Part shown: piece by piece, positions 16,432 through 37,057 of the stretch
How positions within the stretch are numbered: position 1 is the stretch's first letter
Layout: each line of letters starts with the position of its first letter
Assembly (NCBI GenBank): GCA_016871015.1
Contig: VFZX01000030.1
Span: 1 to 37,057 of the forward strand
Source of the DNA: Acidobacteriota bacterium
Lineage (GTDB): Bacteria; Acidobacteriota; Terriglobia; Bryobacterales; Bryobacteraceae
DNA: 37,057 nucleotides
Reading direction: 5' to 3'
Position numbers and translations under genes: made by a program
The notes under the pieces: generated by a model
Databases searched by the model: none
What the model was told of the DNA's origin: nothing
The model's input: only the letters and a program-made list of their open reading frames with translations

Positions 16432-17238
16432 TCAGAAAGTCCATACCGCTTCTCCTCTCGGGCTCACAATCATTTTCGAGCGCGCTCCAAATCGCTGGGC
16501 AATCTCCCCGGCCACGCCCCGCTGCAGGGAAAACGTCACACGGCGAATGCCGGACCCGGATGCATCGGAGGGAACCACATGGATGCGGATCTCAGGACCG
16601 GTCGCCGTCACATTTGCACCGCCGCCGGAGGCCTGGTAGCCGAGTTTGACGAGCATCTCCGGAAACGCGGCGTGTTGGGGTCCATCAAGAGCCAGCTCGA
16701 TCGCCGTTACGTCTTTGAAAAGAAACTCGGAACGCCGGGTGTCCTGGCCGATCTTCGCCACGTAGCGATCCAGTACATTGCGGCGGCGCAGTGAGTTCGC
16801 CCCTACCGGCGGCAGTTCCGGATACCAGTTCGCCAGGAAATCGGCATGGTACTCCATCACCCAGGTGCGGAACCGTTCGCTGCGCGCCACGTCGCCGGCC
16901 ACCGAGAGTGAATGAAACCACGGGGGCTCGGCAGCCCCGGTCCGGCGGGTGATTGTCCTCCGGACGGGCAGCACAGCGGAAAGGTCAGCCGGGCGTTCGA
17001 TGCCCAACGCGATCCCCGAAGCCCCCACCGGGCGGCCCTCGGCGCCGTCCTCGAAAAACTCGAAGTAGGTGTTTCGGCCGTAGAAGTAGATGCCGGTATA
17101 GGCCGCGTCGTTGCGCTGAGTGGTGCGTTCCTCGTAGGGAGCGAACACCGTCTTCAGCCAGGCGGAGTCGCGGACGGCGGCGAAAGTGTCCCGGTCCAAC
17201 GTCAAGAAGAAGTGGTTGAGAAAGACCGGTGGCGTCAT
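16432..17238 (-). CDS. DUF5829-like protein of unknown function
   Basis: A 268-residue protein that starts PPVFLNHFFLTLD and has YTGIYFYGRNTYFEFFE near 46-62, the pattern I associate with DUF5829. Glyoxalase-like strands (EFFEDG, GASGIALGIE) and conserved Trp and His residues (PWFHS, MEYHADFLANWYPE) suggest an enzyme or ligand-binding fold, but I do not recognise a reaction. No signal peptide is seen. It lies 37 bases downstream of nuoN on the same strand and may be transcribed with the complex I operon. The 3' end adjoins the truncated toxin. Confidence 0.7.
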   Translation of the reverse strand: MTPPVFLNHFFLTLDRDTFAAVRDSAWLKTVFAPYEERTTQRNDAAYTGIYFYGRNTYFEFFEDGAEGRPVGASGIALGIERPADLSAVLPVRRTITRRTGAAEPPWFHSLSVAGDVARSERFRTWVMEYHADFLANWYPELPPVGANSLRRRNVLDRYVAKIGQDTRRSEFLFKDVTAIELALDGPQHAAFPEMLVKLGYQASGGGANVTATGPEIRIHVVPSDASGSGIRRVTFSLQRGVAGEIAQRFGARSKMIVSPRGEAVWTF

Positions 17239-17275: not shown

Positions 17276-18742
17276 CTACCGCCCAATCGCCGACGAACGC
17301 GATGCGACGTTCAACAACAATGATGGCGCCACCCCCAACACCACCACCGCCAGCGCCGCAACCAGCGACGCCACCCGGATCCCAGCCGCCGGCTCCTCCA
17401 GCGACTCCGTCGCGTGCCCCGGCTCGTGGAAGTACATCACCACGATGATCCGCAGGTAGTAGTATGCCGCCACCGCAGAGTTCAAAAGCCCCAGCACCGT
17501 CAGCCAGTACAACTGCGAATCGAGCGCCGCCTTAAAGATGTAGAACTTCCCGAAGAAGCCGCCCGTCAGCGGGACCCCAATCAGCGACAACAGGAAGATC
17601 GCAAACAGAGCCGCCGTCACCGGCTGCCGCTGCGACAGTCCGGCGAGATCGTTCACCTGGACGTACCGCTCGCCCTGCCGCGACAGGTGGCTGATCAGCG
17701 CGAACGCGCCGATGTTCATGAACACGTAACTCGCCAGATAGAACATCGCCGCCGCCGTGCCGATCTGTGAATGCGCGGCCACTGCCACCAGCACGTATCC
17801 CGCATGCGCGATCGAGGAATAGGCGAGGACGCGCTTGATGTTGGTCTGCGTCAGCGCCGCAAAATTGCCGATCACCATCGTCGCCAAGGCCGACACCCAG
17901 ACCACCGGGAGCCACGTTTCCGCGATCCCGTCGAATGCCGTGATATAGACCCGGATGAACACTGCGAACGCCGCCGCCTTCGGACCCGCCGACATGAACG
18001 CCGTCACCGGCGCGGGCGCGCCTTGATAGACATCCGGGGTCCAGGCCTGGAACGGCGCTGCCGACACCTTGAACGCGAACCCGACGAACATCAGTCCCGC
18101 GGCCAGCCCTACCAGCGCCGGATCCGCGGTGGCGCTCGTTTGCAGATACTGCCGGATCACCGCCAGATTCGTCGATCCGGTGAGCCCGTAGATCCACGCC
18201 ACGCCATACAGCAGGAACGCCGTGGCGAACGAGCCCAGCAGGAAATACTTGATCGCCGACTCGTTGTTGCGCTTGTCGTCCCGGAGGTAGCCCGCCAGGA
18301 CATAGGTTGCGATCGAGGAGATCTCCAGTCCGATAAACACCATGATCAGCTCGTTGGCGGTCGCCAGGATGCACTGGCCCACCAGCGAGTACAGGATCAA
18401 CGCGTAGTATTCGCCGGAATCAGCCCGCTCCCGGCTCAAGTACGACGGCGAACACAGCACCGCCAGGATTCCGACCGTGAGCACCAGCATCCGGAAGAAC
18501 GTGCCAAACCCGTCCACCAGCAGGAAATCCGAGAACGCGGGACCGGGATTCGAGCCTGCATAGCACGCCGCCGCCATCGCCAGAAACAGCCCGAACAGCG
18601 CGACCTTGTGGGTCCCCTTCCGATGTCCATCCCCCGCGAACCCTTCCAGCACCATGATCAGCGTGCCCATCAGGATGAGGATCGTCTCCGGAAGGAACCG
18701 GATATATTCAGCTTCGGTGGGGAAAGCGAAGTTAGCGGGCAT
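17276..18742 (-). CDS. nuoN: NADH-quinone oxidoreductase subunit N
   Basis: A 488-residue polytopic antiporter-like subunit of complex I, part of the membrane proton-pumping arm. The conserved pair is present: Glu140 in MVFIGLEISS and Lys225 in GFAFKVSAAPF, followed by QAWTPDVYQGAP. Length is normal for the family. Its start overlaps the end of nuoM by 11 bases, the usual final gene order L-M-N. Confidence 0.95.
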   Translation of the reverse strand: MPANFAFPTEAEYIRFLPETILILMGTLIMVLEGFAGDGHRKGTHKVALFGLFLAMAAACYAGSNPGPAFSDFLLVDGFGTFFRMLVLTVGILAVLCSPSYLSRERADSGEYYALILYSLVGQCILATANELIMVFIGLEISSIATYVLAGYLRDDKRNNESAIKYFLLGSFATAFLLYGVAWIYGLTGSTNLAVIRQYLQTSATADPALVGLAAGLMFVGFAFKVSAAPFQAWTPDVYQGAPAPVTAFMSAGPKAAAFAVFIRVYITAFDGIAETWLPVVWVSALATMVIGNFAALTQTNIKRVLAYSSIAHAGYVLVAVAAHSQIGTAAAMFYLASYVFMNIGAFALISHLSRQGERYVQVNDLAGLSQRQPVTAALFAIFLLSLIGVPLTGGFFGKFYIFKAALDSQLYWLTVLGLLNSAVAAYYYLRIIVVMYFHEPGHATESLEEPAAGIRVASLVAALAVVVLGVAPSLLLNVASRSSAIGR

Positions 18743-20228
18743 TGGCGGCTCTCATCTCCACGCGAGCTTTCGACTGTTCGAGGATCTTGGCATTGGCGGC
18801 CGAGATCGGATTCAGGAATCCGCCCGCCGCCGTGCCCATCCAGACCATCAGGATCACCAGCGGCGCAACCGCCACCAGCTCGCGTGTGTTGATATCGGTC
18901 ACGTGGTGCTCCACGTCGTGGGGCGTCTTGCCCAGGAAGGTCCGCTGGTACATCCACAGCATGTAGCAGGCGGAGAAGATCACGCCCAGCGCGGCGAACA
19001 CGGCCCAGCGGAAATTGGCGATCGCGGCGCCTTGCAGCACCAGGAACTCGCCGACGAAATTGTTGAGCAGCGGAAGTCCGATCGAGGCGAGCGTGGTGAT
19101 CATGAAGATCACCGCGAGCTTGGGAGCAACCGTGGCCACGCCGCCATAGGCTTTGATCTCCAGCGAATGCTGGCGCTCGTACAGGAATCCGACCAGCATG
19201 AACAGCGCACCAGTCGACACGCCGTGGTTCAACATCTGGTAGACCGCCCCGTCCAGGCCCTGCTGGTTAAACGCGAACGTCCCGAGCACCACGAAACCCA
19301 AGTGGCTCACCGAGGAGTAGGCCACCAGCTTCTTCATGTTTGGCTGGACCATCGCTACCAGCGCACCCACCGAAATCCCAACCAGCGCGAATCCAGCGAT
19401 CCAGGGCGCCAGCTCCCGCGCCGCGCCCGGGAACATCGGCAGACAGAACCGGACGATGCCATAGCACCCCATCTTCAGCATCACCGAGGCCAGCATCACC
19501 GATCCTGCCGTCGGCGCCTCGACGTGGGCGTCGGGCAGCCACGTATGCAGCGGCCACAACGGGACCTTGATCGCGAACGCGATGAAGAACGCCAGGAACA
19601 GATAGATCTCGGCGTTGTGGCTCAGGTTGATGCGGCCCTCCTGCAGCAGCTTCGTCAGGACCGTGTAGTCGAACGTTCCGCCCTGCGTGTACAGGTACAG
19701 GATCGCGGCGAGCATCAGCACCGAGCCGGCCATCGTGTACAGGAAGAACTTCACCGTCGCGTAGATCCGCCGGTCGTGTCCCCAGATGCCGATCAGGAAG
19801 TACATCGGAACCAGCGTGACTTCCCAGAAAACGTAGAACAGGAACAGGTCGAGCGCCGCGAACACGCCCACCACTCCGAACTCGAGCAGCAGCAGGAAGG
19901 CGTAGAATTCCTTCACCCGGTGGCTGATGTAGTTCCACGAGATCAGCACGCACAGCGGTGTCAACAGCGTCGACAGGATGATCAGCCACAGACTGAGCCC
20001 GTCGATCCCGGTGTGGTAGCGGATGTTCGGCGTCTCGATCCACGGGATGTTGTTCTCAAACGAGTAGGCCGCCGGATTCGCGGTGACCGGCCCGATCAAT
20101 CCGAGTGAGGCCAGGAAGATCACGATCGACAGCGCCAGCGCCGCCTGCCGGGAGCTCGCCGCCGGGATCAACAACAGTAACAGGAAGGCCACCGCCGGAA
20201 GGAAGATGACGAGGTCGAGCAGGTTCAC
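18732..20228 (-). CDS. nuoM: NADH-quinone oxidoreductase subunit M
   Basis: A 498-residue antiporter-like membrane subunit of complex I. Key residues are Glu136 (FWEVTLVPMY) and Lys221 (IKVPLWPLHTWLPDAH). The start chosen is GTG at 20228 (VNLLDLVIFLP), which overlaps the nuoL TGA; the longer open frame upstream is hydrophilic and overlaps nuoL, so it was rejected. Membrane segments run through almost the whole protein. Confidence 0.95.
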   Translation of the reverse strand: MNLLDLVIFLPAVAFLLLLLIPAASSRQAALALSIVIFLASLGLIGPVTANPAAYSFENNIPWIETPNIRYHTGIDGLSLWLIILSTLLTPLCVLISWNYISHRVKEFYAFLLLLEFGVVGVFAALDLFLFYVFWEVTLVPMYFLIGIWGHDRRIYATVKFFLYTMAGSVLMLAAILYLYTQGGTFDYTVLTKLLQEGRINLSHNAEIYLFLAFFIAFAIKVPLWPLHTWLPDAHVEAPTAGSVMLASVMLKMGCYGIVRFCLPMFPGAARELAPWIAGFALVGISVGALVAMVQPNMKKLVAYSSVSHLGFVVLGTFAFNQQGLDGAVYQMLNHGVSTGALFMLVGFLYERQHSLEIKAYGGVATVAPKLAVIFMITTLASIGLPLLNNFVGEFLVLQGAAIANFRWAVFAALGVIFSACYMLWMYQRTFLGKTPHDVEHHVTDINTRELVAVAPLVILMVWMGTAAGGFLNPISAANAKILEQSKARVEMRAANAR

Positions 20229-22096
20229 AGTGAGCTTCCTCCCATCGCCGTCATGGCTGCCAGCACCAGCAGCGATCCGAGCACCACCCAGGCCGCATAG
20301 CTGCGGATGTTGCCCGTTTGGAACCGGCGCGTGATCCCGCCGATCATCCTGGCCAGCGTCCCTGCCCCGTTCACTGCCCCGTCCACGATCCCTGCGTCCA
20401 ACCCCTTCCACAGGATCGACTTCGATCCATCCACCAGCGGGTGCACGATCGTGCCGTAGTAGACCTCATCCACGTAGTACTTGTTATAAACCGCGCGGTA
20501 GAGCCCACCCAGCGCCGACGCAATGGACTTGGGCGTCTCCGGGCTGAGCACGTACAGGAACCAAGCGAGCGCGATACCCGCCAGTCCCGCGGCCACCGAA
20601 ATCGCCACGAGCGTCGAATCATGCTCGCCGCCCTTCAGCGGGAACACCGGTTCCAGGAATTGCGGAATGTGCGTGTAGCCACCCGCCAGCGACAGGACCG
20701 CCAGCACGGCCAGCGGACCCGTCATCACCCAGGGCGACTCGTGCGGATGATGATGTCCGCGGTACTCGCCGAAGAACGTCATGAACATGCAGCGCGAAAC
20801 GTAGAACGCGGTCATTCCCGCCGTAATCACGCCCACCCAATACATCCAGGGATGATGATGATGCGCTGCCAGCAGGATCTCGTCCTTGCTGTGGAATCCG
20901 GAAAATGGCGGGACTCCGGCGATCGCCACCCAGGCGCAGGCCAGCGTCAGGAACGTCACCGGGATCTTCGAGCGCAATCCGCCCATGTGGCGGATATCCT
21001 GCTCGCCTTCGAGCGCATGGATCACCGACCCGGCTCCGAGGAACAGCAGCGCTTTGAAGAACGCGTGCGTCACCACGTGGAAGATCCCCGCCGAGAACGC
21101 GCCGCACCCGAGCGCCAGGAACATGTAGCCCAACTGCGACACGGTCGAGTAGGCAAACACCTTCTTGATATCGAACTGCGTGATGCCGATCGTGGCGGCC
21201 AGCACCGCGGTGATCAACCCCACGTAGGCCACCACTTCCATCGCGATCGGAGCATTCACAAACAGCGCCGCCGACCGGGCCACCATGTAGACACCGGCGG
21301 TCACCATCGTCGCCGCGTGGATCAGGGCGGACACCGGCGTCGGGCCCTCCATCGCGTCCGGCAGCCAGACATATAGCGGAACCTGAGCGGACTTACCGGT
21401 GGCGCCCACCAGCAGCAGCAGGCAGATCGCCGTCAACCATCCGAATCCCGATTCCGGCGAAAGGGCCTTGGCCTTCTCAAACACCGCCGGGAAGCTCAGC
21501 GAGCCGAAGTGGACGAAGATCAGGAACATCGCGAGCGAGAATCCAAAGTCGCCGATGCGGTTCACGATGAACGCCTTGTTGCCGGCGTTGGTCGCGCTGA
21601 GCTTGAGGTAGTAGAAGCCGATCAGCAGGTACGAGCACAGCCCCACGCCCTCCCAACCAACGAACAAGAGCAGGTAGTTGTTGGCCAGCACGAGCGTGAG
21701 CATGAAGAACATGAACAGGTTCAGGTAGGCGAAGAACCGTTCGTAGCCCTCTTCATGCGACATGTATCCGGTCGCATAGATATGGATCAAGGATCCGATT
21801 CCAGTGACAACCAGGAGCATCACCGCCGTCAGCCGGTCGATCGCCAGCTCCACCGGGATATTCAGCGCCCCAGAAGCGATCCAGGTCCCGTAGGTTTCAA
21901 TGTGGGAGTGCTCAAGCGGCATCAGCGCCGAGATGCACTTCAACACCCAGGCGAATGAAGCCGCCACCGTACCCACGGCCACCAGGCTCACGGCGCCCTT
22001 GCCCAGCCGCTTGCCGAGCAGTCCGTTGATGAGGAATCCCAGCAAAGGCAGGACCGGGATTAGCCAGAGAGATTGCGAGGAGTGCAAGGAATGCAT
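20225..22096 (-). CDS. nuoL: NADH-quinone oxidoreductase subunit L
   Basis: A 623-residue antiporter-like subunit that forms the distal end of the complex I membrane arm, with the long lateral helix at the C-terminus. Seen are Glu149 (FVGWEGVGLCSYLLIGF), Asp183 (NRIGDFGF), Lys235 (GKSAQVPLYVWLPDAM) and His260. A His-rich loop (HHHHPW, GHHHPHES) lies near 440-490. It starts 1 base after the nuoK stop. Confidence 0.95.
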   Translation of the reverse strand: MHSLHSSQSLWLIPVLPLLGFLINGLLGKRLGKGAVSLVAVGTVAASFAWVLKCISALMPLEHSHIETYGTWIASGALNIPVELAIDRLTAVMLLVVTGIGSLIHIYATGYMSHEEGYERFFAYLNLFMFFMLTLVLANNYLLLFVGWEGVGLCSYLLIGFYYLKLSATNAGNKAFIVNRIGDFGFSLAMFLIFVHFGSLSFPAVFEKAKALSPESGFGWLTAICLLLLVGATGKSAQVPLYVWLPDAMEGPTPVSALIHAATMVTAGVYMVARSAALFVNAPIAMEVVAYVGLITAVLAATIGITQFDIKKVFAYSTVSQLGYMFLALGCGAFSAGIFHVVTHAFFKALLFLGAGSVIHALEGEQDIRHMGGLRSKIPVTFLTLACAWVAIAGVPPFSGFHSKDEILLAAHHHHPWMYWVGVITAGMTAFYVSRCMFMTFFGEYRGHHHPHESPWVMTGPLAVLAVLSLAGGYTHIPQFLEPVFPLKGGEHDSTLVAISVAAGLAGIALAWFLYVLSPETPKSIASALGGLYRAVYNKYYVDEVYYGTIVHPLVDGSKSILWKGLDAGIVDGAVNGAGTLARMIGGITRRFQTGNIRSYAAWVVLGSLLVLAAMTAMGGSSL

Positions 22097-22097
22097 G

Positions 22098-22415
22098 CTA
22101 GAGTTTCAGCGAATCCACTTCGTCCACCATCAGCGTGGCGCGGTTCTTGAACACGGTGAGGATGATGGCCAGGCCCACCGCGGCCTCAGCCGCCGCCACC
22201 ACCATGACGAAGAACGTGAACAGGTGGCCGTCGGTCTGCTTCAGGTGATAGGAAAACGACACAAAGCTCAGGTTCACCGCGTTGAGCATCAACTCGATGG
22301 ACATGAACATCGTGATCAGGTTCTTACGGATCAGGAAGCCCGCCACGCCGAGCACGAACAGGATCGCGCTCAGGGTGAGATAGGCGACAAGAGGTACCGG
22401 AGGAGGAGGAGGCAA
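22098..22415 (-). CDS. nuoK: NADH-quinone oxidoreductase subunit K
   Basis: A 105-residue, three-helix membrane subunit of complex I. The two buried glutamates of the proton path are present: Glu41 ([12 protein letters not shown]) and Glu77 ([13 protein letters not shown]). The N-terminus MPPPPPVP is an unusual proline run, probably a slight extension before the first helix. It starts 1 base before the nuoJ stop codon region and is followed directly by nuoL. Confidence 0.95.
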
Positions 22416-22416
22416 G

Positions 22417-22920
<504 letters not shown>

Positions 22921-22926
22921 GTCAGT

Positions 22927-24117
22927 CTATTTCCACACCGCCACAAGCAGTCCGGTCGCAAACAGCGTGCCGATCGAGACCGGGAACATCCAGCCCCACG
23001 CAAAGTGCATGAGCTGGTCATAACGGAAGCGCGGCAGGGTCGCGCGCACCCAAATATAGAGGAAGAGCAGGAACAGCGTCTTTGAGAGGAACCAGAACAG
23101 CGGCGTCGTGATCGGCATCAAGACCGGAATCCAGTGCAGCACGCCGATCCCGCAGAAGATCACGCCGAACAGCGGCAGCGAGATCCGGTCTCGCGCACGC
23201 GCCAGGTTCACCGTACCGTGATAGAGCATCAGTACACCACTGGCGAAGAACACAGCGCCGGGCACCCAGTCGAGCCCGGGGGTGGGAGGCAGCCAGCCGC
23301 CGAGGAACAGGATCACCGCCAGGCAGCAGATGGTGGTCATATTCGCGTACTCGGCCATGAAGAACGCCGCGAACTTCATCGACGAGTACTCGGTATGGAA
23401 TCCCGCCACCAGCTCGTTCTCGGCTTCCGGCAAATCAAAGGGAATCCGGTTGGTCTCCGCGAACGCGCAAATCAGAAAGATGATGAACGCGACAAACGGA
23501 ATCCCGAAGTAGGAAAAGATCGACCAGTTGTAGAGGAAGCCCCACTTGACTACGTTCTGCGACTCGACAATCTCGCGCATCGACAGCGAATTGTGCATGA
23601 GCAGGGGCGCGGCGATGGCCACGGCCAGCGGAAGCTCGTAGCTCACCATCTGGGCCGAGGCGCGCAGTCCGCCGAGCAGCGCGTATTTGTTGTTCGACGA
23701 CCACCCGGCCAAGGCCACCGCATAGACGCCGATCCCCGAACATGCCAGCGGGACCAGGACGCCGATATTCAGATCCGTGAGCCCCAGGTACGTCTCGATC
23801 GAGGTGAATGGCACCGTGATCTTGGGTCCAAACGGGATCACTGAAATCGAGATCAGCGCCATGGCGACGCCGATCACCGGTGCCAGCAGATAGAAGAACT
23901 TGTTGACGTGGGCCGGAATCAGGTCCTCTTTCGTCAGCAGCTTGATCGTATCGGTGAGCGGCTGCAGCAGCCCGTGCGGACCCACGCGGTTCGGACCCAC
24001 GCGCACCTGCACGTGCGCGATCACTTTTCTCTCGATCCACTGCAGGTAGGCAAGCGCGGTGAGGAAGACGAAGGCGACCAGTCCGGTCTTGATGAGACTG
24101 AGGAGGAGGAAATCCAT
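22927..24117 (-). CDS. nuoH: NADH-quinone oxidoreductase subunit H
   Basis: A 396-residue membrane subunit of complex I that forms part of the quinone chamber and links the peripheral and membrane arms. Family signatures are WIERKVIAHVQVRVGPNRVGP near 27-47 and the loop ETNRIPFDLPEAENELVAGF with its conserved acidic residues. Eight or nine membrane segments are visible. It begins 11 bases after the nuoG stop. Confidence 0.95.
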   Translation of the reverse strand: MDFLLLSLIKTGLVAFVFLTALAYLQWIERKVIAHVQVRVGPNRVGPHGLLQPLTDTIKLLTKEDLIPAHVNKFFYLLAPVIGVAMALISISVIPFGPKITVPFTSIETYLGLTDLNIGVLVPLACSGIGVYAVALAGWSSNNKYALLGGLRASAQMVSYELPLAVAIAAPLLMHNSLSMREIVESQNVVKWGFLYNWSIFSYFGIPFVAFIIFLICAFAETNRIPFDLPEAENELVAGFHTEYSSMKFAAFFMAEYANMTTICCLAVILFLGGWLPPTPGLDWVPGAVFFASGVLMLYHGTVNLARARDRISLPLFGVIFCGIGVLHWIPVLMPITTPLFWFLSKTLFLLFLYIWVRATLPRFRYDQLMHFAWGWMFPVSIGTLFATGLLVAVWK

Positions 24118-24128
24118 CTGGTAAAGAT

Positions 24129-26207
24129 CTAGCCTTTATACAAAGCGCCCGGCGCTTCCATGACCGAGCCGAGAATCTTGGAGTAGCGGCCGAGACTGCC
24201 CGAGGTGAACAGCGTGTCGCCCGCCGAGCGAACCAGTTCCGGGTCGGGCAGCACGTCCACCCTTCCGTTGACCGGCTGCGCCTGCGCCGCGCCGCCCGTG
24301 GCGAGCACCGGCAAAGGAACATTATAACCACGCACTGACTTCCGGATCTCTTCGAACACCGCTTCATTTTGCGCGCGTCCGGCATCGACGCCCATCGCGC
24401 GCGCGATCAGTCCGAAGATCTCCAGGTCGGGCTTTGCGCCCATGATGTTCAGCCCCTTCTTCAGTCGCTGAATCTGCCCGGTCACGTTGGTCACCGTGCC
24501 GGACTTCTCATACGCCGAAGCCGAGGGGAGCACCACGTCGGCTTGTTTGGCGGTGTCGGTGAGGAACAGATCCTGCACCACCACGAACGCTTTTCCGGAT
24601 GCCAGCCGCTTGCCGCCCGCGAGCGGATCAGCGCCCACCACCCACAGCGCCGCCAGGTCCTGCGACGCCGCCATCTGGGGCAGACTCATGCCGCGCACCG
24701 CCGCCGGATGGTATCCCGGACCAAGCTCGGGCAGCAGGCCCATGTCCATCGCGCCGCGTGAATTCGAATAATCCACCAGGCAGACGTACCGCACTGGGAT
24801 CCCCAACGAATCGCCAAAAGCCACCAGCTCACCTACCGCCGCGCCCTTGATTCCGTCACCGAACACGATCACCAGATCCGCGTGCTTCTTCAGATCCTCG
24901 CCGAGCCCCCGCACTCCGGCCAGGTAGTCCGCCGTGTGGACCGCCTTGGCCGCGGTCTGCTCTTCCCGCACCGGACCACGCGTCACCGTGTAGACCGCCG
25001 CCTGGTGATGCCGGACATTGGCGCGAACCTGGAACGCCAGGAACGGATGTTGCTGCGAAAGATCCGCGTCCACCACCAGCACCGCCTTGGCATGATAGAG
25101 CGAATCCGCCGTCGCCAGCGCATCCGTCTTGCCCGCCAGGGCATGAATCAATGCCGGAACGTCGCCTGACCGCGCATGGTCGATATGCGGCGTCCCCAGC
25201 CCTTGCCGGGCGAACTTCTGCAGGAAGTAGCTTTCTTCGTTGGTCGAATGGACCGAGCCGGCGACGCCGATTGCCCCGCCCGCCGCCTTGATCTCAGCGA
25301 ACCGTGCCGCGACCGCTTTCACAGCCTCGGCCCAACTCACTTCCTCGAGCTTGCCGTTTCTTCGCACCATCGGCGACTGGAGCCGGTCCTCGTGTTTGAT
25401 GAAGTCAAACGCGTACCGGCCCTTGATGCACAGGAATTCCCCGTTGATGCCGGTGGAGTCGCGGTTGTTGCCACGGACGATCTCGTTGTTGCGGACGCCC
25501 AGCGTGGTCTTGCATCCGTCCGAGCAGTGCGTGCAGATCGTGCCCACGTGCTCCATTTCCCACGGACGCGTTTGATACCGGTAGATTCCGCTCGTCAGCG
25601 CGCCCACCGGACAGATGTCGATGCAGGCTCCGCACTGGTCGCAGTTCAGGTGATCGCCTTTGTTGGGCGTGATTTCGGAGTAGGCGCCGCGATGCGTGAT
25701 CCCGAGCGCGGTGACTCCCATGCCCTCGTCGCACACCCGGACGCAGCGGTAGCAAAGAATGCAGCGCGGCGCGTCATAGTAGACCACCGGCGACCACTGC
25801 TTCTCGTCCACATGATGCTTCACCTCGGTGAAGCGGCTCTCGCCCGCGCCATAACGGAACACCATGTCCTGCAACTCGCACTCGCCGCCCTTGTCGCACA
25901 CCGGACAATCGAGCGGATGGTTGGTGAGCAGGAACTCGAGCGTCGTCTTGCGCGCCTGGACGGCCGAAGCCGCCTCGGTCCGAACGACCATGCCTTCGGC
26001 CACCGGCAGCGTGCACGCGGCCTGGAGCTTGGGGAACTTCTCGACCTCGACCAGGCACATCCGGCACGCGGCCTGGAGCGAATACCCTTCGTAGTAGCAG
26101 AACGCGGGAATCAGGATCCCCGATTGTTTGGCGGCGTCGATCAGCAGGGTCCCGGGCGCCGCCTGGACCGCCTTGCCGTCGATCGTCAGATTCACCGGGT
26201 TAGACAT
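24129..26207 (-). CDS. nuoG: NADH-quinone oxidoreductase subunit G with an extra [4Fe-4S] motif
   Basis: A 692-residue peripheral-arm subunit carrying most of the iron-sulfur wire from FMN. Ligands seen: [2Fe-2S] N1b at Cys37, 48, 51 and 65; His-ligated N5 at His97, Cys101, 104 and 110. A ferredoxin-like part has two full CX2CX2CX3C runs (Cys149, 152, 155, 159 and Cys189, 192, 195, 199). An N7-type site lies at Cys225, 228, 232 and 260. Typical NuoG has only one cluster (N4) in the ferredoxin part, so an additional cluster is predicted, as in FdhF- and NADP-hydrogenase-like proteins. The molybdopterin-oxidoreductase-like domain follows from about 220 to 600. It is shorter than E. coli NuoG. 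Its start overlaps nuoF by 8 bases. Confidence 0.93.
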   Translation of the reverse strand: MSNPVNLTIDGKAVQAAPGTLLIDAAKQSGILIPAFCYYEGYSLQAACRMCLVEVEKFPKLQAACTLPVAEGMVVRTEAASAVQARKTTLEFLLTNHPLDCPVCDKGGECELQDMVFRYGAGESRFTEVKHHVDEKQWSPVVYYDAPRCILCYRCVRVCDEGMGVTALGITHRGAYSEITPNKGDHLNCDQCGACIDICPVGALTSGIYRYQTRPWEMEHVGTICTHCSDGCKTTLGVRNNEIVRGNNRDSTGINGEFLCIKGRYAFDFIKHEDRLQSPMVRRNGKLEEVSWAEAVKAVAARFAEIKAAGGAIGVAGSVHSTNEESYFLQKFARQGLGTPHIDHARSGDVPALIHALAGKTDALATADSLYHAKAVLVVDADLSQQHPFLAFQVRANVRHHQAAVYTVTRGPVREEQTAAKAVHTADYLAGVRGLGEDLKKHADLVIVFGDGIKGAAVGELVAFGDSLGIPVRYVCLVDYSNSRGAMDMGLLPELGPGYHPAAVRGMSLPQMAASQDLAALWVVGADPLAGGKRLASGKAFVVVQDLFLTDTAKQADVVLPSASAYEKSGTVTNVTGQIQRLKKGLNIMGAKPDLEIFGLIARAMGVDAGRAQNEAVFEEIRKSVRGYNVPLPVLATGGAAQAQPVNGRVDVLPDPELVRSAGDTLFTSGSLGRYSKILGSVMEAPGALYKG

Positions 26208-27516
26208 GGATTCTCACCAGGGATTCCGAAACTCCCGCTGGCACCTGAACCTGCGCCAGACGGGCCTCGAACTCAGCTCTAAATTTCTTGACAATCGAAA
26301 TCGTGGGCAGCGCCGCCGCGTCTCCCAGCGGACAGAACGTACGCCCAAGCATGTTCTCCGCCAGCTCACCCACCAGGTCGATGTCGCTCCTCACGCCGAT
26401 CCCGTCGTCGAGCCGCGTGAGAATCTTCTTCAGCCACAGCGTGCCCTCGCGGCACGGGATGCACCACCCACAGCTTTCGTGCTGGTAGAACTTGATGATC
26501 CGGAGAGCCGCCTTCACCATATCCGTGGAGTCGTCCATGATCACCATGCCGCCCGATCCGAGCATCGATCCAGCCTTGGCCAGCGAATCGTAGTCCATTG
26601 GGAGGTCGCACTCGTCCGCCTTCAACACCGGACACGACGACCCGCCGGGAATCACCGCCTTAAGCTTCCGCCCCGGCCTCAGTCCACCCGCCATTTCGTT
26701 GATCGCCCGCATCATCGGGAATCCGATGGGCACCTCAAACACTCCGGGACTCTGCACATGCCCGGAAATGCACAACAGCCGCGTCCCTCCGGCCCTCGGC
26801 ACGCCGAGGCTCGCATACCAGTCGCCGCCGTTCAGAATAATGTCGGGAACCGCGCAGAACGTTTCGACGTTATTCAAAATCGTGGGACACTGGAACGCAC
26901 CCGACACCGCCGGAAACGGCGGCCGGATCCTCGGCTGCCCGCGCTTGCCCTCAAGCGACTCAAGCAGCGCCGACTCCTCGCCGCACTCGTACGCACCGGC
27001 GCCTGTATGCGTCGACAAGTCGAAATCGAATCCTGTCCCCTGGACGTTCTTGCCCAGCCAGTTCGCCTTGTATGCCTCGGCGATGGCCTTGTCCATGATG
27101 TCGATCAGGTAGCGGTACTCACCGCGGATGTACACCCAACCTTGGTGCGCTCCGACCGCCTTGGCCGCAATCAGGCAGCCCTCGATCAGCCGGTGCGGAT
27201 CAAACTCCATCAGCAGCCGGTCCTTGCACGTTCCGGGCTCGGATTCGTCCGCGTTCACCACGATGTACTTGGGCTTGGGCGACTGCCGGGGAACGAAGCC
27301 CCACTTCATCCCGGTCGGAAACCCCGCGCCTCCGCGGCCGCGAAGGTTGGACTTCTTCACCTCGTTGATGATGTCGTCCTGGCTCATGTCGAGCGCTTTT
27401 CGCGCGGCCTTATATCCGTCGTGCGCGAGGAACGTGTCGATCGAAGCGGAATTGGGGAGATGGAACCTGCGGGAGATGATGATCGTTTCCGCCGGATGCG
27501 GCTTGTTGTAGGGCAT
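26200..27516 (-). CDS. nuoF: NADH-quinone oxidoreductase subunit F
   Basis: A 438-residue NADH- and FMN-binding subunit of complex I. The glycine-rich NADH/FMN loop GRGGAGFPTG is at 60-69, with further FMN contacts in NADESEPGT and ECGEESALL. The [4Fe-4S] N3 ligands are Cys349, 352 and 355 (SCGWCIPCREG) and Cys395 (TFCPLGDA). It is where hydride from NADH enters. It starts 3 bases after nuoE ends and overlaps nuoG by 8 bases. Confidence 0.95.
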   Translation of the reverse strand: MPYNKPHPAETIIISRRFHLPNSASIDTFLAHDGYKAARKALDMSQDDIINEVKKSNLRGRGGAGFPTGMKWGFVPRQSPKPKYIVVNADESEPGTCKDRLLMEFDPHRLIEGCLIAAKAVGAHQGWVYIRGEYRYLIDIMDKAIAEAYKANWLGKNVQGTGFDFDLSTHTGAGAYECGEESALLESLEGKRGQPRIRPPFPAVSGAFQCPTILNNVETFCAVPDIILNGGDWYASLGVPRAGGTRLLCISGHVQSPGVFEVPIGFPMMRAINEMAGGLRPGRKLKAVIPGGSSCPVLKADECDLPMDYDSLAKAGSMLGSGGMVIMDDSTDMVKAALRIIKFYQHESCGWCIPCREGTLWLKKILTRLDDGIGVRSDIDLVGELAENMLGRTFCPLGDAAALPTISIVKKFRAEFEARLAQVQVPAGVSESLVRIHV

Positions 27517-27519
27517 GCG

Positions 27520-28002
27520 CTACTGGATCCTCCGCAGGTCGTCGATGAGCTTGTCCAACTGGTCGAGGGTGACGTAGTGGTGGAAATCGTAGTTGGTTTG
27601 GATGGCCGGCGCCCACGAGCAGGCGCCGATACACTCGACTTCCTCAAGTGAAATGCTGCCGTCAGCGGTCACTTGGTTATGACCGATCCCGAGCTTTTTG
27701 CTGGCGTGCTGCCACAACTCATCTCCGCCCACCAGCAGGCACGAAATGTTGGTGCAGATCTGAAGGTGGGTCTTGCCCATCTTCTTCGTCCGCAGCATCG
27801 TGTAGAACCCAACCACCTCCTCCACCTGAAGCGTGGTCACGCCGCATCGCTTGGCGACCTCTTCGGCCAGTTCCTTGCTGATATGGCCGACCTCGTCCTG
27901 CGTGTACATCAGCATCGGGATCAGCGCCGCGCGCTCACGGCCCTTGGGATAGCTTTCGAGCATCTTGGCAAGGCGCGCTTCCAGTTCCGGCGAGAAGGTC
28001 AT
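27520..28002 (-). CDS. nuoE: NADH-quinone oxidoreductase subunit E
   Basis: A 160-residue thioredoxin-fold subunit carrying the [2Fe-2S] cluster N1a. Ligands are Cys83 and Cys88 (CTNISC) and Cys124 and Cys128 (CIGAC). It pairs with NuoF in the NADH-oxidising module. Its ATG overlaps the nuoD stop by 4 bases. Confidence 0.95.
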   Translation of the reverse strand: MTFSPELEARLAKMLESYPKGRERAALIPMLMYTQDEVGHISKELAEEVAKRCGVTTLQVEEVVGFYTMLRTKKMGKTHLQICTNISCLLVGGDELWQHASKKLGIGHNQVTADGSISLEEVECIGACSWAPAIQTNYDFHHYVTLDQLDKLIDDLRRIQ

Positions 28003-29216
28003 CGGTCGGTGTCTCCGAGTACAAAGTCCATCGAGCCCAGGGCGGCGATGGAATCGGCGATCAAGGTGTTCTCCAGCATCGGCGCGAGAATTTGCAGATT
28101 GGCGAAGCTCGGCGTCCGCATGTGGACCCGGTAGGGCTTCGTGGTTCCGTCGCTCACCACGTAGTAGCCCAGTTCGCCACGCGGCGCTTCGACACAGGCG
28201 TAGGCTTCACCGGCCGGCACCGAAAAGCCTTCGGTGACGATCTTGAAATGGCAGATGAGCGCCTCCATCTCGGTCTTCATCTTCTCCCGCTCCGGCAGCA
28301 GGATCTTCGGAGCATCCGCCTGGAACGGACCCGGGGGCATCCCGTCGAGCGCCTGCTTGGCGATCTTGTGCGACTGGCGCAGTTCCTCGATCCGCACCTG
28401 GTACCGCGCGAACACGTCGCTCTCGGTCCGGGTTGGGACTTCGAAATCGAACTTGTCGTAGCCCGAATACGGCTCATCCTTGCGGATGTCCCACTTGAGC
28501 CCGGCGGCGCGGATCATCGGACCCGTGACGCCCCAGTCGAGCAGGTCCTCGAGCGACATGTAGCCGACGCCCTTGGTCCGGATCGTCCAGATCGGATTCC
28601 CGGTGAGGAGGTTCTCGTACATGTCGATCCGCGAGGGAAACTCGCTCAGGAACTTGCCGACCACCTTCTCCCACCCGCGCGGTGCGTCCAGCGCCACGCC
28701 ACCGATCCGCAGGTAGCTGGTCATCATCCGCTGGCCGGAGAACATCTCCAGGATCTTGAGGATGTCCTCGCGCTCGCGGAAGCAGTACATGAACATCGAC
28801 ATGGCGCCGATGTCCAGCGCGTGGGTCCCGAGCCAGACCAGGTGCGACGCGATGCGCGACAGCTCGGTGAGCATCACGCGAAGGTACTGGGCACGCGGCG
28901 GGATCTCCAGTTGCAGCAGCCGTTCCACCGCCAGGCAGTAGGCTAGATTGTTGGCCAGGTTGGACAGGTAGTCGACGCGGTCGGTCAGCGGGACCACCTG
29001 CTGCCACGTCTTGGTCTCACACTGCTTCTCGATCCCGGTGTGGAGGAAGCCGATGTCGGCCACCGCCTTGAGAATCACCTCGCCGTCCAGGTCCAGGACC
29101 ACGCGCAGCACGCCGTGCGTCGACGGATGCTGTGGACCCATGTTCAGCGTCATCGTGCGGCGGCGCGAAGGCTCGGCCGCGGCCGTGGGTGTGTGCTCCA
29201 GGGTTCCGGCTGCCAT
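27999..29216 (-). CDS. nuoD: NADH-quinone oxidoreductase subunit D
   Basis: A 405-residue, 49-kDa-type subunit that shapes the quinone-reduction site together with NuoB. The GPQHPSTHG loop holds His30 and His34, and the C-terminal RTPSFANLQ and DFVLGDTDR segments are diagnostic. Normally NuoB's N2 cluster sits against this subunit; no nuoB is encoded in the window. It starts 3 bases after the nuoC stop and overlaps nuoE. Confidence 0.95.
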   Translation of the reverse strand: MAAGTLEHTPTAAAEPSRRRTMTLNMGPQHPSTHGVLRVVLDLDGEVILKAVADIGFLHTGIEKQCETKTWQQVVPLTDRVDYLSNLANNLAYCLAVERLLQLEIPPRAQYLRVMLTELSRIASHLVWLGTHALDIGAMSMFMYCFREREDILKILEMFSGQRMMTSYLRIGGVALDAPRGWEKVVGKFLSEFPSRIDMYENLLTGNPIWTIRTKGVGYMSLEDLLDWGVTGPMIRAAGLKWDIRKDEPYSGYDKFDFEVPTRTESDVFARYQVRIEELRQSHKIAKQALDGMPPGPFQADAPKILLPEREKMKTEMEALICHFKIVTEGFSVPAGEAYACVEAPRGELGYYVVSDGTTKPYRVHMRTPSFANLQILAPMLENTLIADSIAALGSMDFVLGDTDR

Positions 29217-29219
29217 CTA

Positions 29220-29705
29220 TTACTCCTGAGGGTAGCTGTACTTGTAGCCGTGCACGGGGAAATCCTTCCGCAACGGGTGGCCTTCCCAATCCTCCGGCAT
29301 CAGGATCCGGGTCATGTTGCCGTGATTGCGGAAGTGGACTCCGAACAGATCAAACACCTCGCGCTCGAACCAGTCGGCTCCGCGCCAGACGCCGATCACC
29401 GAGTCGATCTCGGGTTGCGTGCCGGACACCCGGCACTTCAGCCGCAACCGCTCGTTCCGCGAGATCGAGTGGAGGTGGTAGATCACCTCAAACCGCGGTT
29501 CCATCGGATATTGGTCAACGCAGGTGACCGCCGCGAGCCGCAGGTACCCGTCAGCCTTCAACGCCCGGCAGACTTCAACGATGCGCGCTGGATCGATGTC
29601 GATCGTCAGTTCCCCGCGGTCGAGCTTTCCGCCCACGGCCGCGCCGGGCAGATTGCCTTCGAGCGCCTGCGTCACACGCATCCCGAGTACTTGTTCAGAC
29701 AACAT
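29220..29705 (-). CDS. nuoC: NADH-quinone oxidoreductase subunit C
   Basis: A 161-residue, 30-kDa-type subunit of the complex I peripheral arm. Diagnostic segments are GADWFEREVFDLFGV and ILMPEDWEGHPLRKDFPV near the C-terminus. It is a separate gene, not fused to nuoD as in E. coli. Only 25 bases separate it from nuoA, leaving no room for the nuoB gene that normally stands there. Confidence 0.95.
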   Translation of the reverse strand: MLSEQVLGMRVTQALEGNLPGAAVGGKLDRGELTIDIDPARIVEVCRALKADGYLRLAAVTCVDQYPMEPRFEVIYHLHSISRNERLRLKCRVSGTQPEIDSVIGVWRGADWFEREVFDLFGVHFRNHGNMTRILMPEDWEGHPLRKDFPVHGYKYSYPQE

Positions 29706-29730
29706 TGTTTCGATGAGGTTTGAGGGTGGG

Positions 29731-30132
29731 TTACTTGCGTTGGATCCGGCTGATCTGAGACCAGTCCAGAACTCCCTTCTTCCAAATGTAGAAGAAGCCG
29801 GAGAGAATCAGGATAACGAAAATCGCCATTTCGACGAATGCGATCATGCCCAAATCCTTGTAGACCACGACCCAGGGGTACAGGAACACAGCTTCGATGT
29901 CGAACAAGATGAACAGCATCGCAACCAGATAGAACTTGACGGAGAACCGTTCTTCCGCCGAGCCCTGCGGAGCCATTCCGCATTCATACGGGCTGTCCTT
30001 AATTTTGTTCTTGAGCTTCTTTCCGAGGAGGGAGGAGGCACCGACGAGACCTAGCGCCAGGCCAACACCCAACAGCGCTTGAACGAGAACTGGAAAGTAG
30101 ACTTCGAGCGGAGTGGTGGGCACTTCCTTCAA
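29731..30132 (-). CDS. nuoA: NADH-quinone oxidoreductase subunit A
   Basis: A subunit of up to 133 residues with three membrane helices. The SPYECGMAP loop with its conserved Glu and Cys next to the quinone chamber, and FDIEAVFLYPW in helix 2, are diagnostic. The first possible start is TTG at 30132, which has no ribosome-binding site. A GTG at 30123 lies 10 bases after a TATAGT element (30138 to 30133) and may be the real start of a nearly leaderless message. It heads the complex I genes, 24 bases after the broken gene. Confidence 0.93.
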   Translation of the reverse strand: MKEVPTTPLEVYFPVLVQALLGVGLALGLVGASSLLGKKLKNKIKDSPYECGMAPQGSAEERFSVKFYLVAMLFILFDIEAVFLYPWVVVYKDLGMIAFVEMAIFVILILSGFFYIWKKGVLDWSQISRIQRK

Positions 30133-35372: not shown

Positions 35373-36230
35373 CTAGTGCAGAGTCCGCAGCCTTTCATGT
35401 CGACTGATGATTTGTTGGATCCGGACGCCGTAGTTGCCCTCGACGACCACCACCTCACCCCGTGCGATCACGCAGTTGTTGACGATGATCTCGACGGGCT
35501 CGGCTACGGTCCGGTTGAGTTCGACGATTGAGCCTGAGGCGAGCTTGAGGACTTCCTTGAGCGGGAGGTGTGCCCGCCCAAACGACACGCTGACTGGAAG
35601 CTCGACATCGTAGAGCAGGTCCAGTGTGCGCGTGGTGGGACCTTCAGGGACGGTCTCGCAGGCTGTTTCCTTGGGGGTTGTTGGACTGGCTGCTGGACTG
35701 GACTCGCCCCTCTTTGGCGCCGCCGCCGGGCTTCCCGCAGGCGTCAGCGCCCGGGCGATTTGCTCGCTCCACTCGAGGAACACCGGACAGGGTCCCGAAC
35801 CAATCGAGAGGTGGAAAACAGTCACACTTCGGCCGGGCGGCGAGTCTTCTTTGCCGGTTCCCGCGTTCACTTCGCGACCCGCAAACCCGGTCAGGCCATG
35901 AGCGAGTCCGGCGAACGCCTGCTGGAGGATTTCTTGATAGGTGCTGCGCTGATCCTCGGGAGTCGAGTCGTCGATGCCCGCTCCACTGAGCACTTTCGCG
36001 CCGATCGCACTCCAAACCTGCGGCGGCGCGCCCACCCAAACGGCACACCCCGGCGCCAAATCGAACCCCTGCATCCACCAAAGGGTGTCGGGGGGGACCT
36101 CCGCGCCTTCCACCACGTGCTGGACTTGGGCGGCCTCCCCGGTCATGGCCTCTACCGACTGCTTGAGCCGGAGCGCCCACTCCTTGACGAACCATTGTTG
36201 TACGGTGCTCGATTCCGCGCCCGAGGGCAT
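35373..36230 (-). CDS. fliN: Flagellar motor switch protein FliN-like, with N-terminal extra domain
   Basis: A 285-residue protein. The C-terminal part (about 200-280) is the SpoA/FliN domain: LYDVELPVSVSFGRAHLPL, LKLASGSIVELNRTVAEPV and VIARGEVVVVEGNYGVRI. FliN stacks in the C-ring and takes part in rotation switching and export docking. The N-terminal 160 residues form a separate domain with QEILQQAFAGLAHGL, resembling the CheC-like middle domain of FliY/FliM, joined by a Pro/Ser/Ala/Thr-rich linker. FliN alone is usually about 100-140 residues, so this is a FliY-like long form. It begins 3 bases after the sigma factor stop. Confidence 0.85.
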   Translation of the reverse strand: MPSGAESSTVQQWFVKEWALRLKQSVEAMTGEAAQVQHVVEGAEVPPDTLWWMQGFDLAPGCAVWVGAPPQVWSAIGAKVLSGAGIDDSTPEDQRSTYQEILQQAFAGLAHGLTGFAGREVNAGTGKEDSPPGRSVTVFHLSIGSGPCPVFLEWSEQIARALTPAGSPAAAPKRGESSPAASPTTPKETACETVPEGPTTRTLDLLYDVELPVSVSFGRAHLPLKEVLKLASGSIVELNRTVAEPVEIIVNNCVIARGEVVVVEGNYGVRIQQIISRHERLRTLH

Positions 36231-36233
36231 AGC

Positions 36234-36968
36234 TTAGCGTCCCCGTTTCGGCGGCCATTTCTTTTCAATGAATGCCCGCAAGCGCAGGATTGCCTGCGAT
36301 TTGAGCTGCGACACCCGGCTCTCGTGCAGCTTGACGATGCGGGAGATCTCGCGCAGCGTCAACTCCTCGTGGTAGTAGAGAGCGAGAATCGTCTTTTCGA
36401 CGTACGGCATGCGACTGATTGCCTGGCTGAGCAGCCGCTCGAGTTCTGCCCGTTCGAGGATCCGGTTCGGCCACCCCTCCTCGTCGTCGGAGATGTACTT
36501 GAGCAGGTCCCGTCCCTCTTCGTCGGGCGAGTTTCCCTCGAGCCGCCCGATGTTGAGACCGCGAACATCCACCAGCCATTCGCGGTACTCCTCCATGGTG
36601 AGCCCCAACTCGCGCGCGATTTCTTCTTCGGAAGGAGCCCGTTGCTCGCGCTGTTCGATTGCCGCGATCGCAGCTTCAATCTGCTTGGACTTGCGCCGCT
36701 GCTGGCGCGGAGCCCAGTCCAGACCCCGCAGGCTGTCCAGGATCGCCCCGCGGATCTTATACTCAGCGTAGGTTTTCAGCTTGACATTATGGGACGGGTC
36801 GAAGTGATCGATCGCCGATATCAGACCCACTGTGCCGGTCGACACCAGGTCCTCCAGGCTTACGCTCTCCGGGAGCCTCTCGTGGATCCGGCGGGCGATC
36901 AATCGCACCTGCGGCAGGTGCTCGAGTATCAAACGCTCCCGCTCCTCCTGTGTGCGAACCGGAGACAT
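36234..36968 (-). CDS. fliA: RNA polymerase sigma factor, FliA/WhiG (sigma-28) type
   Basis: A 244-residue group 3 sigma factor from ATG 36968; TTG 36977 is an alternative start three codons earlier. Region 2 is EDLVSTGTVGLISAIDHFDP followed by TYAEYKIRGAILDSLRGLDW, which melts and reads the -10 element. Region 3 follows (APSEEEIARELGLTMEEY). Region 4 carries the -35-reading helix-turn-helix (LTLREISRIVKLHESRVSQL). This form directs late flagellar and chemotaxis genes. The next gene, a FliN-like motor protein, fits such a locus. No strong ribosome-binding site is seen for either start. Confidence 0.92.
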   Translation of the reverse strand: MSPVRTQEERERLILEHLPQVRLIARRIHERLPESVSLEDLVSTGTVGLISAIDHFDPSHNVKLKTYAEYKIRGAILDSLRGLDWAPRQQRRKSKQIEAAIAAIEQREQRAPSEEEIARELGLTMEEYREWLVDVRGLNIGRLEGNSPDEEGRDLLKYISDDEEGWPNRILERAELERLLSQAISRMPYVEKTILALYYHEELTLREISRIVKLHESRVSQLKSQAILRLRAFIEKKWPPKRGR

Positions 36969-37057
36969 CCTTGACAAGTGTGCCGGTGGGCGGTTGACAC
37001 AAACGAAGGGTAACCGGGGGACAGCGGTTAAGCTGGGGGATGCCCTGGCGAGAGGTG
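36969..37057. other. Upstream edge of the sigma factor gene
   Basis: The last 89 bases of the window contain no gene I can support. A preceding flagellar gene could end here on the minus strand, but its frame cannot be chosen. Two TTGACA strings on the plus strand lack a matching -10 within range. Confidence 0.3.

Follow-up and report, generated by a model that had tools for sequence, protein, structure and literature searches.

Canonical complex I is represented by the 14-subunit enzymes of Thermus (Nqo1-14) and Escherichia coli (Nuo), and the acidobacterial genome studied here encodes the same subunit set in a colinear arrangement save for NuoB and NuoI. By comparison with the canonical nuoA-N operon, nuoB and nuoI lie here on contigs other than that of the operon and other than each other's. 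Dispersal of complex I genes is already known. The ndh genes of cyanobacteria and chloroplasts are distributed among several transcription units, with an enzyme type lacking NuoEFG and another gene grouping, and the likeness to the present case lies in complex I-type subunits being encoded in dispersed units. The nearest precedent is NUO-2 of Nitrospina gracilis, whose complex I genes are scattered over the genome with nuoB2 and nuoF2 outside the nuo clusters (PMC3578206). NUO-2 belongs to a single organism, in which it forms a second complex whose cofactor sites are altered, whereas the complex reported here is the sole one found, has ordinary ligands and is split in 20 of the 22 loci of its class in our tree set. 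The 11-subunit complex I-like enzymes without the NADH module are related to complex I (PMC11238625), and they differ from the operon analysed here, which contains nuoE, nuoF and nuoG. In Acidobacteriota, complex I has been described as mostly complete by a study that clusters subunit genes within 250 bp, the sections consulted containing no remark that we could find on dispersal of B or I (PMC12361115); those of a further article, which has O2-shift transcriptomes of three acidobacterial strains, treat complexes III and IV (PMC8407424). No description of a nuoB/nuoI split was found in the open-access literature searched, and the new element here is an apparently repeated exit of nuoI and nuoB from the operon in one phylum, with intermediates.

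The window, that is, the whole stretch of 37,057 nucleotides that was analysed, is a complete contig (C30) of a genome of 8,658,050 bases in 720 contigs, 99.74% complete. A complex I operon occupies positions 17276-30132 on the minus strand, in the order A-C-D-E-F-G-H-J-K-L-M-N according to NCBIfam and Pfam profile identities. Its first gene, nuoA (29731-30132), was assigned by position and order, its best family (NF005922 NuoA, E 2.4e-35) being under its cut-off. The usual site of nuoB is taken by 25 bases (29706-29730), too short for any nuoB remnant, which lead to nuoC (29220-29705; TIGR01961, 138.4 bits, cut-off 122.45) and nuoD (27999-29216; TIGR01962, 568.9 bits, cut-off 459.35), the latter giving the single PF00346 match in the genome. 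The NADH-input module is complete in the operon, with nuoE (27520-28002; TIGR01958, 157.8 bits), nuoF (26200-27516; TIGR01959, 612 bits) and nuoG (24129-26207; TIGR01973, 486.7 bits) each over their cut-offs of 142.4, 558.65 and 470.05, respectively. For nuoH (22927-24117), NF004741 reached 307.1 bits (cut-off 305), and NF004743 and NF004745 scored higher but under their own cut-offs. Six bases (22921-22926) stand at the usual site of nuoI, followed by nuoJ (22417-22920; NF005165, 112.9 bits, every J model being under its cut-off), nuoK (22098-22415; PF00420, 93.2 bits), nuoL (20225-22096; TIGR01974, 729.6 bits, cut-off 407.5), nuoM (18732-20411; TIGR01972, 569.7 bits, cut-off 263.8) and nuoN (17276-18742), identified by order and by a Proton_antipo_M domain (PF00361, 272.6 bits). 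No NuoB was detected in the window, the sole PF01058 match of the genome at a threshold of E 0.001 being located on contig C304, and the profile search with NuoI models gave no NuoI over cut-off in the window; its only NuoI-model match (21.7 bits, 25587-25769) falls inside nuoG. The window shows neither nuoB between A and C nor nuoI between H and J, the places that they occupy in the canonical order. In agreement with the sequence-only reading, profile identities and sequence confirmed the gene order with its gaps of 25 and 6 bases, and a closer search of the window found neither of the two genes that this reading had reported as absent from the operon. A gene for a DUF5829 protein (16432-17238) follows nuoN directly on its strand, and genes for a FliN-type protein and for a sigma factor are found at 35373-36977 of the window.

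The same reading had stated that nuoB and nuoI must be encoded elsewhere, or that electron transfer is rewired, and the whole-genome search bore out the former by revealing full-length, single-copy genes for both. The nuoB gene is located at 9265-9819 of contig C304 (plus strand), encodes 184 amino acids, scores 225.6 bits with TIGR01957 (cut-off 142.7) and is the sole PF01058 gene found in the genome; it lies 267 bases from the contig end and has as neighbour a minus-strand frame with 4-alpha-glucanotransferase (MalQ) domains. The nuoI gene, at 6268-6837 of contig C196 (minus strand), scores 138.6 bits (cut-off 113.05), which makes it the one NuoI of the genome over the cut-off, and is preceded on the same strand by a frame with an AhpC/TSA (thioredoxin-like) domain. 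A tblastn search with the 14 own subunits as queries revealed no further complex I genes on C304 or C196. The tally of the genome thus comprises all 14 core subunits of complex I, 12 in the operon and B and I on other contigs, with A and J under their NCBIfam cut-offs, N and K assigned by Pfam and order, and B and I over cut-off. Among solved structures, the closest to NuoB and NuoI of this genome are the Thermus complex I chains 2fug_6 and 2fug_9. NuoB contains Cys 58, 59, 124 and 152, the ligands of cluster N2, and the same columns are filled in 36 of 36 orphan NuoB proteins across the phylum. The NuoI frame contains Cys 84, 87, 90, 94, 129, 132, 135 and 139, the ligands of clusters N6a and N6b, with the same columns filled in all 46 orphan NuoI proteins of the phylum. 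The cysteine count covers the orphan genes other than L397 and the second-type B genes (L398, L370, L377, L383, L399 and the first B of L363).

Because NuoD is present in single copy (one complex I seen), the orphan NuoB and NuoI most likely serve this operon. The missing linkage by itself could also be read as a functional loss of B and I, leaving a 12-subunit or rewired complex with another acceptor and orphan proteins that serve something else. We rejected this alternative, which appears very improbable, on account of the single-copy, ligand-complete B and I: NuoB, NuoD and the over-cut-off NuoI each occur once in the genome, no other complex I is seen that they could belong to, every cluster ligand is kept, and the orphan distances track those of the operon (see below). 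The terms loss and rewired electron transfer used in the sequence-only reading are consequently not sustained, all 4 + 8 cluster cysteines being conserved as described. We favour instead, with a probability of about 0.9, an ordinary acidobacterial complex I operon from which nuoI and nuoB were relocated by descent, and whose 14-subunit enzyme is completed in trans. As judged from the genes, a normal 14-subunit NADH:quinone oxidoreductase is the most likely product of this genome, and its assembly in trans and enzymatic activity would be expected.

In a genome of 720 contigs, an assembly deletion or chimera at both junctions of this contig might also create such an arrangement. Related genomes, whose comparison had been proposed as a check in the sequence-only reading, display the same split. 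The nearest named NuoD relatives, taken as the best 80 of 579 relatives, are nearly all labelled acidobacterial and mostly Bryobacterales/Bryobacteraceae, with the best at 89%. Among these best 80 of 579, none has NuoB or NuoI inside the fetched operon stretch, A is followed directly by C in 76 (no A was found in the remaining 4), and H directly by J in 55, with 21 loci ending at a contig edge and 4 broken after F or H. An operon without B was also observed in 36 of the 63 scorable loci of the tree set, the window included, and the one-contig chromosome AP025252.1 (G216; 6,182,012 bases) has D at 5.67, I at 5.12 and B at 6.05 Mb, so that operon, I and B are 0.4-0.9 Mb apart. Because independent assemblies (the 80 named loci, the tree set and the one-contig chromosome) show the same split, the possibility of an assembly fault was rejected and hardly deserves any credence. 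The sole NuoI-like match among the best 80 of 579, located upstream of the operon of L087, is a small ferredoxin and was discarded. Four of the relatives (L057, L071, L074 and L088) and L241 show a further break of the operon, behind H, F or D, and in each the sequence past the break contains no nuo gene over at least 2.4 kb.

Within the class, a sample of 121 genomes, with counts that pool all complex I types, yielded NuoB in 119 (E 1e-35), NuoI in 120 (E 1e-20) and NuoD in 119 (E 1e-60) genomes. The order A-C-D without B was present in the 30 best-scoring NuoD loci of the class (30/30) and in 20 of the 22 tree-set loci from this class, H and J being adjacent in 17 of 17 scorable loci among these 20; the remaining two (L245 and L246) represent other operon types. 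Other arrangements also occur in the class. In family f69, NuoD is carried together with B and C by open frames of some 770-890 residues. Part of f70 has an E. coli-like operon in which a single frame covers C and D and I is linked, and five loci of f73 display A-B-C-D and a distant D.

For a view of the whole phylum, 60 operon loci were fetched, 20 from the own class (10 family codes) and 40 from 34 other family codes, and these, five more operon loci and the window constitute the 66 rows of the tree set; L400, a second complex, was dropped from the operon trees. Three states were observed in the sampled Acidobacteriota, i.e., a complete operon, I out, and both I and B out. Both genes are inside the operon in f14, f19, f31, the four loci of E. 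coli-like type and a B-C-D-I arrangement shared by several families, and the loci with I in number 14. B is in and I out in eight loci (f7 G005, f15, f21, f24, f33, f46, f58 and f60), and in the f46 locus L285 I is out and B unscorable. In all, B is out in the 36 of 63 loci mentioned above and I in 40 of 54 scorable ones. An operon tree computed by quick search from 1670 columns of seven concatenated subunits, with SH-aLRT support values, requires 2 changes of the B state and 3 of the I state. The 20 own-class loci form a clade with support 100, B being out in 20 of 20 and I in 17 of 17 scorable loci. Its sister group (f60, f21 and f32; support 98) has B in. I is outside the operon in f60 and f21, and f32 (G165) has it 1.3 Mb from D. 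A second clade, elsewhere in the tree, contains 16 loci (support 82), with B out in 16 of 16 and I out in 14 of 14 scorable loci.

These trees suggest that the exit of I and B from the operon seems to have occurred more than once in the phylum, the order and the number of exits being readings of the tree topology. In favour of a single ancestral exit of B and I followed by later re-insertions speak the uncertain root of the phylum and the 3 changes of B asked for by the nuoD-only tree; nevertheless, this scenario would need B to be re-inserted exactly between A and C, and a single clade of all B-out rows, a group defined by the trait and not picked from the tree, was rejected (p_AU 0.000468, operon tree), which leaves this scenario unlikely. 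A careful tree of nuoD alone retained the placement of the sister group (99/94) but required 3 changes of the B state, because f31, which has a complete operon, and f11 are nested in the second clade at moderate support (91/88). Similarly, G101 (f51, second clade) has an orphan B that joins the in-operon B of f31 in the B tree (support 90), and the in-operon I of f31 is placed among the second-clade orphans in the I tree. Because of these placements in the nuoD-only, B and I trees, the second clade may have experienced several exits, or a return.

The orphan genes could have moved away from the operon or, alternatively, the original B and I could have been deleted and copies from another lineage taken up. 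In the B tree (165 columns, from which the B of L397, the same gene as that of L260, was dropped) and the I tree (159 columns), the orphan proteins of this genome group with those of its own family, and the orphans in general largely follow the families of the operon, with many weak forks. The distances of operon and orphans were compared by Mantel tests with one row per genome. The rows entered included no second-type B gene and no genome with an E. coli-like operon, and neither L400, L251 (one of the two operons of G283) nor the first B of L363. The correlation was 0.789 for B and 0.819 for I in the own class (19 genomes) and 0.674 for B and 0.896 for I in the second clade (16 genomes), with 0 of 999 permutations reaching the observed value in each of the four tests, a result that reflects shared descent, as expected for any vertically inherited gene, and is no proof of physical partnership. 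Because the B and I trees agree in large part with the operon tree, nuoB and nuoI appear to have been moved rather than replaced, and relocation rather than foreign replacement is well supported by these phylogenies. Xenologous replacement could draw on the short B and I alignments, with their many weak forks, and on the position of the G101 orphan B next to the f31 in-operon B. This explanation is nonetheless quite improbable in view of the Mantel values of 0.67-0.90 across both clades, the grouping of own-class orphan B and I into the families seen for the operon, and the position of the class orphan I beside the orphan I of f21, f32 and f60, i.e., the sister group of the operon tree. Neighbouring B and I genes found in L096, L097, L099, L105, L108, L116 and L118 were considered as a source of the orphans and set aside, because the I encoded there is only 31-38% like that of this genome and because the operons of G116, G143 and G054 (the three fetched) keep their own B.

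The position of the two relocated genes relative to each other differs between the clades. B and I were located in 17 second-clade genomes (16 of the tree and G177), and in 10 of them (G101, G092, G137, G177, G128, G169, G019, G153, G110 and G071) the two are direct neighbours on one strand, I first, with 8 to 101 bases between matched segments. Two others have B first and not adjacent to I (3.2 kb apart in G033 and 9.3 kb in G145), and the remaining 5 of the 17 have them on different contigs. At L363 (G071:C23:82142-83616) the order is B-I-B, the first B grouping with own-class second-type B genes and the second with other second-clade orphans. In the own class, B and I are adjacent in none of 19 genomes, lie on different contigs in 14 and share one contig in 5, where they are 61 to about 930 kb apart. 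The spacing is only 61-185 kb in G288, G094, G179 and G202 (about 930 kb in G216), possibly a trace of former linkage in a measure biased by contig limits. A scan of up to 5 kb on each side of 38 own-class orphan loci, three second-type B included, revealed as complex I genes only two weak A-like matches (L329, 35%; L376, 43%), and clustering of the flanking frames, many of them antisense, gave no conserved neighbour that could be trusted among the clusters listed.

Taken together, these results outline a stepwise process. On the line leading to the own class, NuoI would have left the operon before NuoB, as the sister group with B in and I out suggests, and NuoB would have left later, both genes settling at separate, unrelated places of the genome; in the second clade both genes would have left, often to sit together as an I-B pair. 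NuoB, carrying N2, and NuoI, carrying N6a/N6b, would then be supplied by distant loci and join the other twelve subunits in trans. The title of a study by Oppermann et al. on E. coli complex I, listed among the references of PMC12361115, agrees with two subunits being supplied in trans. Such a relocation would need no special selection. Alternatively, the repeated exit of NuoI and NuoB might be adaptive, with a separate control that restrains the connecting module's assembly while the twelve-gene operon stays active, and with the I-B pair as a separately arisen control unit, an idea that we regard as speculative and rather unlikely; if it held, control of the N6a/N6b and N2 carriers could answer, e.g., iron or oxygen changes. 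A search for shared upstream words of nuoA, nuoB and nuoI in 19 class genomes gave no clear excess, the mean longest common word in same-genome and cross-genome comparisons being 9.05 and 8.59 for A-B, 8.74 and 8.64 for A-I, and 9.37 and 8.75 for B-I. With or without selection, a well conserved bacterial operon would have undergone a stepwise and repeated break-up in one phylum whose intermediates survive to this day (the complete operon, I alone outside, a displaced I-B pair, and I and B at separate places), which would make Acidobacteriota a natural test of whether complex I gene order matters for assembly. Searches demanding linked subunits would call such a complex I incomplete although all 14 genes exist.

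Other subunits have also departed from the operon. At six loci (L266, L271, L278, L284, L285 and L290) of the f15, f24, f33, f46 and f58 clade, nuoG is missing between F and H as well, and NuoG-like genes under the family cut-off are found elsewhere, e.g., at G125:C1:7321649-7322692, the operon of G125 being near 5.85 Mb. In seven second-clade loci (L258, L259, L288, L289, L297, L402 and L403) nuoM was not found between L and N, the space between these genes being only about 145-325 bases in five of them, and the notion that only iron-sulphur subunits leave is thereby weakened. The absence of just B and I, which the sequence-only reading had called a specific pattern, accordingly holds for 20 of the 22 own-class tree-set loci and for the second clade of 16 loci, but elsewhere in the phylum NuoI alone or NuoI and NuoG are out, and for some second-clade loci NuoM was not found in place either; B and I are therefore not the sole subunits to leave. 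In G082 (f5), no NuoB was detected at E 1e-20 (a weak match reached 2e-7) though NuoD and a contig-end NuoI are present, which may reflect an assembly gap. Finally, G288 harbors at L400 (G288:C1:836053-852053) a second complex I set in the order C-D-I-J-K-L-M-N-H with no A or B beside it, and a second-type B (L370) of the same genome is located at 4.33 Mb, unlinked to L400.
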